A stretch of 64,000 nucleotides of DNA from Natronococcus sp. AD-5 (GTDB taxonomy: Archaea; Halobacteriota; Halobacteria; Halobacteriales; Natrialbaceae), in NCBI RefSeq assembly GCF_030734285.1, contig NZ_CP132294.1:2604001-2668000 (forward strand). Direction: 5' to 3'. The translations under genes were made by a program, and so were the position numbers. This document shows, piece after piece, positions 2,246 to 36,559 of the stretch (within the stretch, counting starts at the first letter, position 1; each line of letters opens with the position of its first letter). The notes beneath the pieces were generated by a model that worked only from the letters and a program-made list of their open reading frames with translations, had not been told where the DNA came from and did not search any database.

Positions 2246-3043
2246 ATGCCGTATATCGAGTGTAATGGGGCGGACCTCTATTACGAAGATCACGGCGACG
2301 GCCGACCGATCGTCTTCCTCCACGGCGTGATGTGCAGCCTCAGGTACTTCGAGCCGCAGTTGAGCGGCCTCTCGAACGAGTACCGCGCGATCGCCGTCGA
2401 TTTCAGAGGGCACGGTCGGTCGGAGAAGACCGAACTCGGACACACCGTCGCGCAATACGCGCGGGATCTTCACGCCTTCGTCGAACAGCGAGACCTCGAG
2501 GATATCGTTCTCGTCGGATGGTCGATGGGCGCGTTCGTTTCGTGGGACTTTGTGGATCAATTTGGCACGGAGCGGGTGCGAGGGCTGGTCGACGTCGATA
2601 TCGAGGCATCGCGGTTCCAGTGGGACGACTACGAGTACGGGCTCACCGATCTGGAGGGGCTCAACGACACGCTCGCACTGGCCCAGTCGGACCGGACGAG
2701 TCTCATCGAACGCTTCACGGAGCAGGTCTTCTCGAACCCTACCGCCGAGATGCGAACCTTGCAATTCGACGAGATGTCGCGAACTCCAGCGCCGATCAAA
2801 AGCGCCATCCTATTCGACGCGCTCACGCGCGATTATCGGACCGTCCTCCCCGAGGTCGACGTCCCCATGTTGGTGTGCGCCGGCGCGGACGAGAGCCGAG
2901 GATCCGTCGCGGCAGTGAGACGCGTCGCGGACCTGGTTCCGGACGCCACGTTCGAATGCTTCGAAGACTGCGGCCACTGTCCGCCTCTCGAGCAGCCCGA
3001 GCGGTTCAATCGGGTAGTGAGCCAGTTCGTCGATTCGCTGTGA
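2246..3043 (+). CDS. Alpha/beta hydrolase
   Basis: A 265-residue alpha/beta-hydrolase-fold enzyme, cytoplasmic. The oxyanion segment FLHGVM is near residues 24-29. The nucleophile elbow GWSMGA places Ser93, and the likely acid and base are Asp215 (GADES) and His244 (DCGHCPP). A TATA-like gtttatcg lies about 30 bases before the ATG, giving a leaderless or very short leader, so this start is well supported. The substrate is unknown. The fold covers esterases, haloperoxidase-like enzymes and C-C hydrolases. Position between acyl-CoA genes hints at thioester or lactone hydrolysis, but that is inference. Confidence 0.88.
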   Translation: MPYIECNGADLYYEDHGDGRPIVFLHGVMCSLRYFEPQLSGLSNEYRAIAVDFRGHGRSEKTELGHTVAQYARDLHAFVEQRDLEDIVLVGWSMGAFVSWDFVDQFGTERVRGLVDVDIEASRFQWDDYEYGLTDLEGLNDTLALAQSDRTSLIERFTEQVFSNPTAEMRTLQFDEMSRTPAPIKSAILFDALTRDYRTVLPEVDVPMLVCAGADESRGSVAAVRRVADLVPDATFECFEDCGHCPPLEQPERFNRVVSQFVDSL

Positions 3044-3048
3044 TCGAT

Positions 3049-3068
3049 GCGCGCCATCTATTCAGCAT
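3049..3068 (+). repeat. Short relic shared with 61596-61615
   Basis: The 20-base stretch gcgccatctattcagcatcg matches 18 of 20 positions at 61596-61615 (gcgctatctattcagcaacg). That second site belongs to a group of tgctgaatac-containing relics elsewhere in the window. It sits directly after the hydrolase stop codon and is probably the end of a lost insertion sequence. Confidence 0.4.
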
Positions 3069-3181
3069 CGAATGAAGGAAAAGTAGTTGGCCTGATGATT
3101 CTCGATCGTGCGCTTGACGGGGTGCATCCGCGGTCGCAGTTCCGGAAATCCGGATGTACTCTGGGCAGCGGCGAGATCGTT

Positions 3182-31861: not shown

Positions 31862-34800
31862 TCACGAAATCGGTGCATCGTCGATGAACGTTTCGACGAG
31901 TTTCTGTACGCCCTCGCGGGTGTGCTGGTGGAACGTAGCCGGCGCGACATCGAGCGAATCGGCCACGTCTTCGCCGGAACTGTCCCGCGGCCACTCGAAG
32001 TATCCCGCGTAGTACGCGGTTTCGAGCGTCGATCGTTGACGCTCGGTGAGCATCTCCTCGAGCGCCGTCTGGAACTCCCGGTTCGAGCGAACCGACCGCT
32101 CGCGCTCCCGCTTGCTAACGAGATCGGTCCGCGCAAACGTCGACTGGATGGCCTCGACGACGTTCCTGACGTCGGCCGCCTGGGAGAAGGCCGCGACGAC
32201 GGTTCCCTTCCCCTCGGTAAACCTGGCGGTGTGGATCGTTCCACCGTACTCGGCCAGGGCGGTTGCCAGCGACGGGCCGCTAACGACGAACTCGAGGAGA
32301 GCGCCGTCTTCGTGATCGGTGACGACGCGCGCCTGCTCGATGCTCGGATCGTCGTCGGCGAATTCGAGTATTCGGTCCGGCGAGACGCCGGTTACCGTGA
32401 AGTACTGGAGATACGAACCGTCGGATTGCGAAGTGATACCTTCTATCTCGAATTCGGCGGCGAGATCGTCCGACGCGCTCACGAAGAACACGTTCCGGTC
32501 GTAGATACCGAACTCGAGTTCGACGATCTCGTCGGTGAGCAGGGCCTCCTTCCGTTCGACCGCGTTGATCGCGAGCCCGATCGTTTTACCGAGTTCGAAT
32601 AACACGGCCTGCTCCCGAATGCTGAACGCGTTCGCACGCGACGAGTACGCGACGAGGACGTCGTAGACCGTCTCCTGATAGATCACCGGGATCACCGCCG
32701 CGGAGGACTGCCAGCGCCCGAACGCTTCGTCGTCGCTCGAGTCGGAAACGGCCAGTCCCGACGGGAGCGCGTCGACACTGCGGATGATCTGGATGTCGCT
32801 CGATTCGACCGCCATCGAAATCGCGTCCACCGCGTCGATATCGAACGATCTATCGAACGAATCGGTCCCGAGTCCGTCGCCGGCCGTCGGCGTAATGTCT
32901 CGGATACCGGTATCGACGTCTCCGATCCACGCGGCGTGGTACAGTTTCGAATCGGTGAGCGTTTCGCAGACCTGGCGTTCGATCTCCTCGCGGGTGGCCG
33001 CCTGGACCAACTCCTGGTTGATCCGTCGGATGACGGTATTGATCTGGTTGAGCGTTTCCAGTTCGTCGCGCTGGCGGCCGAGTTCGAGTTGCTGTTCTTT
33101 CACTTCGGTGATGTCGTCGATGACGCCGACGAATCGGTACACCTCGCCGTCGTCGTCTTGCAGCGGGAACGCGAAGCTATTGACCCACCGGATGGAGCCG
33201 TCGGGCTGGACGACTCGGTACTTCTCCTGGAATCTGATCGCGGTGACGTCGTCTCTCGACGCTCGGGTCGCTTCCTTCACCGCCGTCTCGACCCGGTGCC
33301 GATCCTGCGGATAGACCGCGTCCAGGTGGTTCATCAGGTTGTCGTACACCGAGTCCCGCGAGCGGCCGGTGATCTTCTCGTAGGCGGGATTGATGTACAG
33401 AACTTCGCTCAGATCCGCGTCGGCCATCCAGATGGCGCTGTTGATGTTTTCGGTGATCTGGCGGAGGCGGGCCTCGCTCTCGCGCAACCGTTTCTCGCGC
33501 TCTTTGCGGTCGGAAACGTCCGTCGCGATGACGACCGCCTTCTCGACGTCCCCGTCCGGGTTCGCGATCGGTGCGATGCTGAGGGCGGTCCAGACGCGCT
33601 CGCCGTCGGGACGCTCCAGCCTGAACTCGGAGTTGAGAACGCGCTCGCGGTCCTCGAACACCCGACTCAACAGATCCTCGGGTTGCACCTGCTGTCCGCT
33701 GACCTCGTAGAACCGGCGCTGAGAGACGTCCAGCGTCTGGTTCGTGATTTCCTCGATGGTCAGACCGAGCAACTCCTCGGCCTGGTCGTTGACCCGGGAG
33801 ATGTCGCCGTCGGGCGTGATCACGCCGATGCCGACCGGGCTGGTCCCGAGAATGTGCTCGATGACGTCGCGCTCTTCTCGGAGCGTCTCCTCGCGTTCCT
33901 TCCGATCGGTGATATCGGTCGCGATGATGGCGGCCTTCTCGACGTCCCCGGCGGCGTCCGTCATCGGCGCGATACTGATGGACGCCCAGACGTGGTCGCC
34001 GTCCGGCCGTTCGAGGGTGAATTCGGTGTCGATGACTTGCTCGCGGTCGTCGAACACTCGACTCAGCAGGCCCTCGGGCGATACCCGTCGACCCTCGGAA
34101 TCGTACAGTTTTCGCTGGGACGCGTCGAAGGTCTGATTAGAGAGTTCCTCCATGGTCAGACCGAGCAACTCCTCGGCCTGGTCGTTGACCCGGGAGATGT
34201 CGCCGTCGGGCGTGATCACGCCGATGCCGACCGGGCTGGTCTCGAGGACGTGTTCGATCAATCCTCGTTCTTTCCGGAGTTCCTCGGCGCGTTTCCGCCG
34301 TTCGGAAACGTCTCGAACGATGCCGACGGTTCCCCGCACCGAACCTCCGGAACAGAGCGACGTAATCTGCGCCTCGCAGGGAATCGTCTCCCCGTCGGCG
34401 GCACGTGCGTCGAACTCGACCGTCGCAACCTGTTCATCCTCGTCGTCGAGCACGCCCTTGATAGCGTTCACGAACGCGGAGAGATCGCCCTCGTCGACGA
34501 CCATCGACGCGTGCTCTCCCAGCAATTCCTCGCGCGAGTACCCGAACGCCTCGATGATCGTTCCGTTGACCATTTCGAAGTTCCCGTTACGATCCAGTTG
34601 ATAGATGCCGTATCCCGTCGTTCGGGTGATCGCCTCGTAGCGGTCGATCGTCCGGTCGTACGTCTCACGATCTGTGGAATCGCGGATAAATACCGCGTAG
34701 AGCCGTCGATCCTCGAGTTCGACGGCTCGAACATCGGCGCGGACGCGGACCTCACCACCATCTGCGTGCCGTGCGAACACGTCCAGCCGATCGTTTCTCT

Positions 34801-35068
34801 CGCCGTCGGATACGATAGACGAGAGATCCTCGTCGACGAAGTCCGCGAGAGAGTTACCCACGAGCGCGTCTGGCGAGTACCCGAGGACGGTCGTAATCGA
34901 CTCGCTGGCAAATACGATGATTTCATCGGTATCGACGAGGATGGTCTCGATCGGCGCGCTTTCGACTACGCTTCGGAAGAGCACCGAACCGTCCAGTTTC
35001 TCGGAGCCGAGTTCGGAGTCGTCGTTCCCGTCGATTCCTCCTGTATCCGGTGGTGAGTCGTCAGGCAT
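31862..35068 (-). CDS. Bat-like multi-PAS transcriptional regulator (HTH_10)
   Basis: 1068 residues. Five PAS domains at about 30-135, 145-260, 270-390, 400-520 and 530-655 are followed by a GAF-like domain (about 670-815) and the bacterio-opsin-activator region (about 825-990). A C-terminal HTH_10 (LTERQRSTLETAYYAGYFEW, SLDVAPATFHQHTREGVQKL) binds DNA. PAS3 and PAS4 are nearly identical and share an 89-bp perfect DNA repeat. Homologues activate light- or oxygen-regulated genes; here no opsin gene is near, so the target is unknown. No kinase domain is present. It senses light, redox or ligand in the cytoplasm and is likely a transcription activator. Confidence 0.9.
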   Translation of the reverse strand: MPDDSPPDTGGIDGNDDSELGSEKLDGSVLFRSVVESAPIETILVDTDEIIVFASESITTVLGYSPDALVGNSLADFVDEDLSSIVSDGERNDRLDVFARHADGGEVRVRADVRAVELEDRRLYAVFIRDSTDRETYDRTIDRYEAITRTTGYGIYQLDRNGNFEMVNGTIIEAFGYSREELLGEHASMVVDEGDLSAFVNAIKGVLDDEDEQVATVEFDARAADGETIPCEAQITSLCSGGSVRGTVGIVRDVSERRKRAEELRKERGLIEHVLETSPVGIGVITPDGDISRVNDQAEELLGLTMEELSNQTFDASQRKLYDSEGRRVSPEGLLSRVFDDREQVIDTEFTLERPDGDHVWASISIAPMTDAAGDVEKAAIIATDITDRKEREETLREERDVIEHILGTSPVGIGVITPDGDISRVNDQAEELLGLTIEEITNQTLDVSQRRFYEVSGQQVQPEDLLSRVFEDRERVLNSEFRLERPDGERVWTALSIAPIANPDGDVEKAVVIATDVSDRKEREKRLRESEARLRQITENINSAIWMADADLSEVLYINPAYEKITGRSRDSVYDNLMNHLDAVYPQDRHRVETAVKEATRASRDDVTAIRFQEKYRVVQPDGSIRWVNSFAFPLQDDDGEVYRFVGVIDDITEVKEQQLELGRQRDELETLNQINTVIRRINQELVQAATREEIERQVCETLTDSKLYHAAWIGDVDTGIRDITPTAGDGLGTDSFDRSFDIDAVDAISMAVESSDIQIIRSVDALPSGLAVSDSSDDEAFGRWQSSAAVIPVIYQETVYDVLVAYSSRANAFSIREQAVLFELGKTIGLAINAVERKEALLTDEIVELEFGIYDRNVFFVSASDDLAAEFEIEGITSQSDGSYLQYFTVTGVSPDRILEFADDDPSIEQARVVTDHEDGALLEFVVSGPSLATALAEYGGTIHTARFTEGKGTVVAAFSQAADVRNVVEAIQSTFARTDLVSKRERERSVRSNREFQTALEEMLTERQRSTLETAYYAGYFEWPRDSSGEDVADSLDVAPATFHQHTREGVQKLVETFIDDAPIS
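33756..33844. repeat. 89-bp perfect direct repeat, copy 1 (PAS4)
   Basis: Identical to 34152-34240, 396 bases (132 codons) away. It encodes the TSPVGIGVITPDGDISRVND segment of PAS4, showing recent duplication or conversion of a PAS domain in the Bat-like protein. Confidence 0.85.
34152..34240. repeat. 89-bp perfect direct repeat, copy 2 (PAS3)
   Basis: Second copy of the repeat at 33756-33844, encoding the matching segment of PAS3. Divergence begins immediately after it (first copy cccgag, second ctcgag). Confidence 0.85.
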
Positions 35069-35459
35069 CGGTCCTTATGATTGCACGTAAGGTAAGAAGT
35101 GTATCTGTAAAAGTCGTATTTATTCACTAACAACTATTATTTCAGAAACACACCGTTAGAAACGAGTGTTCGGAGACCGGAACAGTGTTCCGACACCGGT
35201 TATCAGTCCTAACCGGACGTGCGAGGGGAAACTACGGGCGTTATTTTGATCTCGCCGCGACCGATTCGGCCTCCGCACAGGGTTCCGCCCGGAGATTCGG
35301 GGTGGCGAGTCCGGTGTCGTCGTGACTCGCGAGACGGATCTACCGGACGTGATTTTTCAATAGTGGAACGCAATGCTTGCAGCAACGCAAACCGAGGGGG
35401 AGATTCGGATACCGATCCGCTCCTCACGAGAGGGATAGTCGAAACCGCGTTCTTTTTAT
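35069..35459. other. Divergent promoter region of the Bat-like gene
   Basis: About 390 bases. The first 100 bases upstream of the Bat ATG are AT-rich and contain gaataaatac on the minus strand (TATA-like). The part nearer 35400-35459 leads into the amphi-Trp promoter. No gene. Confidence 0.4.
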
Positions 35460-35475
35460 TTTAGGTAGACCTAAA
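35452..35475 (+). promoter_or_regulatory. TATA box plus DtxR-type operator
   Basis: tctttttatt (35451-35460) is TATA-like, centred about 28 bases before the ATG at 35484. It directly abuts TTTAGGTAGACCTAAA (35460-35475), a perfect 7-bp inverted repeat with a 2-base spacer. This is the TTAGGnnnnCCTAA form of DtxR/IdeR/Idr-type metal-repressor sites. A repressor here would block TBP and polymerase, so metal-dependent (iron or manganese) repression is inferred. Confidence 0.65.
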
Positions 35476-35483
35476 CACGGCCG

Positions 35484-35651
35484 ATGCCCGCCGATACGCT
35501 GTCGCATACCGATTCCAAATTCGATGCGGAACTGCCTTCGATCCCCGAAATAGCGGTCTGCGAAAGCCGCCCCGGAAATATGGTTTTCACCGAATCCGGG
35601 AATACCGATGGATGGATTGCAAGCGACCACACCGTTGACGTCGTTCGATAA
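35484..35651 (+). CDS. Small DUF7331-like protein
   Basis: 55 residues: MPADTLSHTDSKFDAELPSI... with a C-terminal NTDGWIASDHTVDV block. The ending resembles the haloarchaeal DUF7331 family (xLAWVEADxAVxL, recalled, not searched). Its TAA overlaps the next ATG (TAATG), so translation is coupled to the amphi-Trp protein. It follows a perfect DtxR-like operator and TATA box with a leader of only about ten bases. No metal-binding motif. Confidence 0.6.
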   Translation: MPADTLSHTDSKFDAELPSIPEIAVCESRPGNMVFTESGNTDGWIASDHTVDVVR

Positions 35652-35944
35652 TGCCAGACGAAGAATCCAGTCCGGACGATCTGACGACGATTCGATCGGG
35701 ACGCAAATTCGAACAAGGGTACCGTCTCGATGCGAGCGACGCAGGCGAGTTCCTGATCGAATTGGGCGAGCAACTCCGCGATAACGACGAACTCACGCTC
35801 GTCGGTGATGAATGGGAACTCCCGTTCGCCTTCGGCGAGCCGATCGAACTGGAGATCGACTTCGACGGCGTCGGCGAACCGGAACTCGAAATCGAGATGG
35901 AACTCCCCGGGCGCACCGACGACAAAGCCCCCGATATCGCCTAA
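35651..35944 (+). CDS. Amphi-Trp domain protein
   Basis: 97 residues. RSGRKFEQGYRLDASDAGEF, LIELGEQLRDNDELTLVGDE and a WELPFAFGEP block are the amphi-Trp domain, a small haloarchaeal domain with alternating charged and Trp/Tyr residues. The N- and C-tails are acidic. Function is unknown. It overlaps the small upstream gene by one base and shares its DtxR-like promoter, suggesting a metal- or iron-controlled two-gene operon. No transporter or siderophore gene adjoins it. Confidence 0.85.
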   Translation: MPDEESSPDDLTTIRSGRKFEQGYRLDASDAGEFLIELGEQLRDNDELTLVGDEWELPFAFGEPIELEIDFDGVGEPELEIEMELPGRTDDKAPDIA

Positions 35945-36559
35945 AATCGGGCCGGACAGCGAGTTACTCCGCTGACTCGAGGAGCAGCGTATCGTCCTCG
36001 AGAGTGGTCGACCAGTGACGTGCTCACCGAGGACCTCGACAGCGGGAGAGTGAAACAGCAGCTCGCATCCGATCGGGGACCGGTAGCGGTGCCATTTCGA
36101 CGCGGCGGATCGACGAGCGTGAAGAAGAGCCGTTTCTCCACTACGCTCACGCCGCGATGGAATAACCGATGGGAGTCCTGCGGCCTCGGATCACCGGGCG
36201 TACATTGTCAGCGTTCGGGCGATACGTTCGCCGGCGCGGCCGTCCATCGGGATACCTAGCTCCTCAAGGAACGTCGGACCGCCGACGGTTTCGATCCGAA
36301 ATACAGAGGACAACGATCCGGGCCAGATAACAGCGCGTTAGTGATGTCCGTAATCCACCCCCCGATAAGACCTCGGTACTCGCATACCGAACTATCCTTG
36401 CCCGGATGATCGAAATTCCCGAGAGAGGGAGCGGTACACGTAAATCGATGGCCTCGAGACTCGCGACTTCGAGTCTATCTCCAGTGCGCGGAGAGCGGCG
36501 GTGGCAGCCAAATACGGGCTTCCCAACCGGCTTGGAGTAGCAAGTGCGCTGCCGAGCAA
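35945..36559. other. Intergenic with a possible decayed gene end
   Basis: 615 bases. Apart from the short relic at 36191-36305 no coding bias is evident. Upstream and downstream are transcribed away from it or into it (amphi-Trp +, sulfatase -). Confidence 0.4.
36191..36305 (-). pseudogene. Possible C-terminal relic of a UDP-GlcNAc 2-epimerase-like gene
   Basis: The minus frame ends TFLEELGIPMDGRAGERIAR... then TGA. FGDGxAxERI ends many UDP-GlcNAc 2-epimerases, so this may be the tail of a deleted homologue. The resemblance is short and unverified, and the rest of the gene is absent. Confidence 0.25.

Follow-up and report, generated by a model that had tools for sequence, protein, structure and literature searches.

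A predicted DtxR/Idr-type operator and a putative iron-regulated DUF7331-like/amphi-Trp operon in Natronococcus and other haloarchaea

Known DtxR-family systems and the locus

The DtxR/IdeR operators of Actinobacteria are inverted repeats of the TTAGG...CCTAA type that serve to block the promoter. Here we describe a repeat of the same type in Natronococcus sp. AD-5, which departs from the actinobacterial arrangement in lying within an archaeal TBP/TFB promoter, with a repressor and a metal that are both putative. Among haloarchaea, DtxR-family regulators govern iron homeostasis, and in Haloferax volcanii the iuc cluster is switched on when iron is limiting (PMC11349517). The locus resembles these haloarchaeal regulons (Idr1/Idr2 in Halobacterium; Idr, SirR and TroR in Haloferax volcanii) in that one inverted repeat is shared by siderophore and transporter promoters, and in that the operator overlaps the core promoter. 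The type of regulation is therefore already known, and the targets are undescribed as far as we have checked: no description of DUF7331-like or amphi-Trp genes as DtxR-family targets was found in the literature searched, which did not extend to the 2024 primary paper on TroR or the 2015 comparative-genomics paper on DtxR, and a literature search for amphi-Trp or DUF7331 found no mention of either.

A single perfect operator site occurs in the window, the whole 64,000-nt stretch of DNA that was analysed. This predicted DtxR/Idr-type operator, TTTAGGTAGACCTAAA, lies at 35460-35475 on the + strand (core TTAGGN4CCTAA, 35461-35474); its arms, TTTAGGT and ACCTAAA, are perfect, and self-complementarity fails at the two central bases alone. 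On one side stand a BRE-like CGAAACC (35440-35446) and a TATA-like TTTTTA (35453-35458), together forming a predicted promoter on the + strand whose arrangement recurs class-wide before DUF7331-like genes; on the other stands the ATG at 35484, 8 bp from the 16-mer and 9 bp from the 14-bp core. Both the perfect repeat and its position between TATA box and start codon are as the original prediction had them. With the TATA-like box centred about 28 bp from the start codon, a distance read against archaeal promoter spacing, the mRNA is probably leaderless. Divergent from the operon is the gene for a multi-PAS/GAF regulator of 1068 aa that also has BAT and HTH_10 domains (31862-35068, - strand); this gene gives no sign of sharing the operator.

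The operon itself consists of two ORFs, for a 55-aa DUF7331-like protein (35484..35651, + strand) and a 97-aa amphi-Trp domain protein (35651..35944, + strand), which overlap by one base at a TAATG junction with the second ATG at 35651; the overlap had been noted in the original prediction, and the two gene identities given there also stand, the first of them on a score below the family threshold. Specifically, the 55-aa protein, which has homologues class-wide, reaches 21.2 bits against DUF7331 (PF24018) and a dps-linked homologue 25.1 bits, both short of the Pfam gathering cut-off of 27; judged by these scores, the group is related to DUF7331 but separate, and "DUF7331-like" is the right name for it. 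The 97-aa protein, placed behind the DUF7331-like gene as in other genomes, passes the NCBIfam amphi-Trp model TIGR04354 (41.1 bits; cut-off 31) and scores 18.4 bits against the broader Pfam amphi-Trp family PF20068, below its cut-off of 27. The DUF7331-like protein has a conserved core of about VFxExxNxDGWIxTDxxV; 42 aligned homologues contain no invariant cysteine, and the homologue alignment shows no invariant set of metal ligands. AlphaFold2 predicts a beta-hairpin at residues 23-37 of this protein (pLDDT 68), and its model of the amphi-Trp protein, built from only three usable sequences, has a pLDDT of 38, so that neither model is strong enough to point to a function; a search for a solved relative found none.

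Conservation of the operator across Halobacteria

Relatives of the 55-aa protein are present in 125 of 125 genomes of the family and in 276 of 292 genomes sampled from the class. Among the 91 family loci that we read, with the twenty weakest matches included, 90 carry a perfect TTAGGN4CCTAA, placed exactly 9 bp before the start in 83; the one locus that does not, L111, matches most weakly of the 91 and resembles another DUF7331 member. Class-wide, a perfect site is found at 69 of 80 named loci and a one-mismatch site at the other 11, most of which are Halorubrum-like and have the site upstream of the TATA box. Neither the reversed pattern nor any of 29 permuted half-site palindromes occurs in the DUF7331-like promoter windows. 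Invariance of the arms within the perfect set is by construction, and 90 of the 91 loci belong to that set; the spacer has about 60% identity across loci, and the flanks vary too. Arms that hold constant in 90 of 91 promoters while spacer and flanks drift are, on this comparative evidence, under selection, and the DUF7331-like gene is the most constant operator target.

A modified form of the site precedes the DUF7331-like gene at L246, L251, L258, L259, L263, L265 and L267, mostly from Halorubrum: the operator there has the sequence TTAGGNNNNCCGAA, shifted and changed relative to the common one, and is found only on the upstream side of the TATA box.

The amphi-Trp genes were followed across Halobacteria at 125 loci where a close relative of the 97-aa protein is encoded, in windows of 700 bp upstream. 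A site upstream of amphi-Trp orthologues, the check proposed in the original prediction, was present in perfect form at 69 of the 125 and missing from about 45%: a one-mismatch site is seen at one further locus and no site at 55, and permuted palindromes occur at most once in the same windows. All 53 of the 53 amphi-Trp loci directly after a DUF7331-like gene have the perfect operator, and these pairs span at least five families. Another 16 have it with no DUF7331-like gene detected, and in nine of them (L275, L278, L285, L316, L322, L337, L350, L351 and L354) an amphi-Trp start in frame follows the operator by 6-18 bp. The profile used to detect DUF7331-like genes derives mostly from site-bearing proteins, a mild circularity that leaves the nine direct cases unaffected. 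Within the genome studied here, none of the eight other amphi-Trp matches is near an operator site. Given these and the roughly 45% of relatives that lack one, the iron link suggested by the sites is confined to a subset of amphi-Trp genes. We considered and rejected the operator as a general trait of the amphi-Trp and DUF7331 families, since the other members in this genome are not near sites. The proposal that metal regulates amphi-Trp genes, which had named iron or manganese, accordingly stands in a narrower form: siderophore and transporter sites and a dtxR gene in the cassette (both described below) favour iron, manganese is less supported, and only the subset is concerned.

Sites elsewhere in the genome

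Perfect TTAGGYNNRCCTAA sites number 12 in the 5.17-Mb genome, against two for the reversed control pattern, and eight congeneric genomes hold 2-11 perfect sites each against 0-2 for that control. Four of the 12 fall in a siderophore gene cluster, whose genes encode a Peripla_BP_2 binding protein, an ABC ATPase, a class III aminotransferase, an acetyltransferase and a Lys/Orn N-monooxygenase. Four more perfect sites fall within 8 kb of an ABC transporter region (permease plus solute-binding protein; L010:9256-16988, C1 2,864,255-2,871,987), at the transporter genes and also at two genes of glycosyltransferase type and a gluconate-dehydrogenase-3/GMC oxidoreductase pair. One further site is at an ABC ATPase gene. 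Apart from the siderophore transporter, the metal specificity of the ABC transporters is a putative assignment from family matches. A perfect site and, next to it, a site with a single mismatch lie upstream of a methyltransferase gene (L011 about 3023-3070, C1 3,465,322-3,465,369), and this gene is an unexpected candidate for membership of the iron regulon.

A second DUF7331-like gene of the same genome (L007:2879-3103, C1 about 847,080-847,303) is convergent with dpsA and has a perfect operator together with an imperfect one across its TATA box; at dpsA-linked loci family-wide, the TATA box is bracketed by the operator and by an additional, imperfect site, TTAGGNNGACCAAA, on its upstream side. 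The operon in the window thus shares its site with iron-acquisition genes of its own genome, and the distribution of sites, as predicted from their sequence, is the profile of an iron regulon. DtxR-family repressor genes that could act on it are available, the genome having at least two, with two full-length candidates among them.

The Dps neighbourhood and possible roles of the two proteins

In many relatives the gene order is dtxR, operator, DUF7331-like gene, amphi-Trp gene and convergent dps. The cassette dtxR passes the Fe_dep_repress cut-off (48-53 bits against 26) and is itself preceded by tandem operators in L135, L137 and L139; among the 53 DUF7331-like/amphi-Trp pairs, a convergent dps is found at 43 and an upstream dtxR at 29. 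In the window the cassette is reduced: the operator and the two ORFs are intact, and there is no dtxR. What follows the operon is a truncated 3' remnant, about 59 bp, of a convergent, ferritin-like dps (35964..36022, - strand), recognised by an 11-aa match, at 82% identity, to the C-terminus of the Dps of G094. In that closest relative the dps beside the operon is intact, and its DNA matches the window at 85% over 589 bp until homology stops inside the dps tail, at about 36022. With only a remnant beside the operon, the local pairing with Dps has been lost here; the dpsA of this genome is elsewhere, adjoining the second DUF7331-like copy.

Beyond this locus, a convergent dps lies within a few hundred bp of most DUF7331-like genes, and the two genes tend to occur together: dps is present in 50 of 52 genomes with a DUF7331-like gene (29 of 30 in a first sample, 21 of 22 in a further one) and in 4 of 16 without it, the other 12 lacking both. 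Fisher's test on the first sample (30 and 16 genomes) gives p = 5e-7, a value that overstates the evidence, as the genomes are related and a single deletion can remove neighbouring genes together. The absences are spread over several genera that also include genomes with both genes. Several genomes keep a DUF7331-like gene and dps unlinked and far apart, four have a divergent dps and no DUF7331-like gene, and at least one shows the reverse. We take this co-occurrence as support for a partnership between the DUF7331-like protein and Dps rather than proof of one.

We think it likely that the window holds a DtxR-type iron-regulon operon that is induced by iron starvation and whose products probably act on Dps storage. 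Its operator and the conservation of that operator, its regulon membership, the dtxR/dps cassette and the co-occurrence with dps are the parts supported by comparison. Iron control of the operon is very probable, although the metal, its binding and the direction of regulation are read from sequence; an action of the products on iron storage by Dps is a more tentative suggestion. Under iron sufficiency, a DtxR-family repressor carrying Fe(II) would occupy TTTAGGTnnACCTAAA, between the TATA box and the mRNA start, and block transcription. When iron is short, the repressor would come off and a bicistronic DUF7331-like/amphi-Trp mRNA would be made, translation of its two ORFs probably being coupled through the TAATG overlap. 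The products would then most likely act on Dps/ferritin, by releasing stored iron or by restraining Dps during starvation. In Halobacterium, DpsA is reported to be lower under iron deficiency (PMC3600143), the opposite of the behaviour expected of the operon, and this fits a release factor or a Dps antagonist.

The operon could also be iron-controlled and yet encode iron-sparing or general starvation factors with other targets (e.g., translation or enzymes), dps being a mere neighbour through iron biology. The lack of conserved cysteine and of an invariant metal-ligand set in the DUF7331-like protein is compatible with such targets, as are the nine operator-controlled amphi-Trp genes without a DUF7331-like gene, most of which have no dps nearby; we nevertheless regard this as doubtful, given the convergent dps beside most DUF7331-like genes and the joint absence of the two.

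A rather improbable alternative is that the transcripts matter more than the small proteins, low-iron derepression sending RNA polymerase convergently toward dps and lowering its expression through antisense RNA or collision. In its favour are a strongly conserved tail-to-tail gene order, the lack of an operator-like site at the dps promoter of this genome, and the reported fall of DpsA; however, stop-to-stop distances range between a few bp and more than 1.8 kb, the proteins are conserved, both genes are kept in several genomes where they are unlinked, and in the window the operator and both ORFs are intact beside a dps that is only a remnant.

DtxR-family proteins include manganese sensors, and with at least two family members in this genome the regulator might be one of these (SirR/MntR type) rather than an iron sensor. 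Such a reading can point to the SirR of Halobacterium, which is Mn-dependent (PMC3600143), but identical sites at siderophore synthesis and transporter genes, and an iron-storage protein as neighbour, leave it with little likelihood, and iron appears the better supported metal for the operon. A chance palindrome without function, for which one might cite the lack of enrichment in the window at up to two mismatches (3 matches against 5.06 expected), is ruled out, for practical purposes, by the finding that 159 of 171 homologous promoters carry the site in perfect form, permuted control palindromes numbering zero.

If the products do act on Dps, a functional parallel is bacterioferritin-associated ferredoxin (Bfd), a tiny iron-repressed protein encoded beside an iron-storage protein. 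The comparison extends to how the system might work and no further: the DUF7331-like protein is likewise small, predicted to be iron-repressed and encoded beside an iron-storage gene, but it lacks conserved Fe-S cysteines, and its putative partner is Dps, not bacterioferritin. Without a conserved cysteine in its core, a Bfd-like role as Fe-S ferredoxin seems unlikely, and we rejected a Bfd-like ferredoxin identity for want of ligands for a [2Fe-2S] cluster. One speculative extension, which we hold less firmly than action on Dps as such, is that the DUF7331-like protein might be a near-universal haloarchaeal partner of Dps in iron starvation, releasing or redirecting iron without an Fe-S cluster, with the amphi-Trp protein as accessory subunit in many lineages.

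These comparisons place two protein groups without an assigned role in a concrete setting, the control and storage of iron. The DUF7331-like gene in particular, found in 276 of the 292 genomes behind a very constant promoter site, probably belongs to the core of the iron response in haloarchaea, easily overlooked for its small size; were the partnership with Dps to prove true, it would represent a module of a new kind, one that unloads or regulates ferritin. At L147 (G032) the neighbourhood differs: two tandem Dps-like genes with 43-45% identity to DpsA lie upstream of the pair, on the same strand (-1495 to -423 from amphi-Trp), in place of the usual convergent dps.
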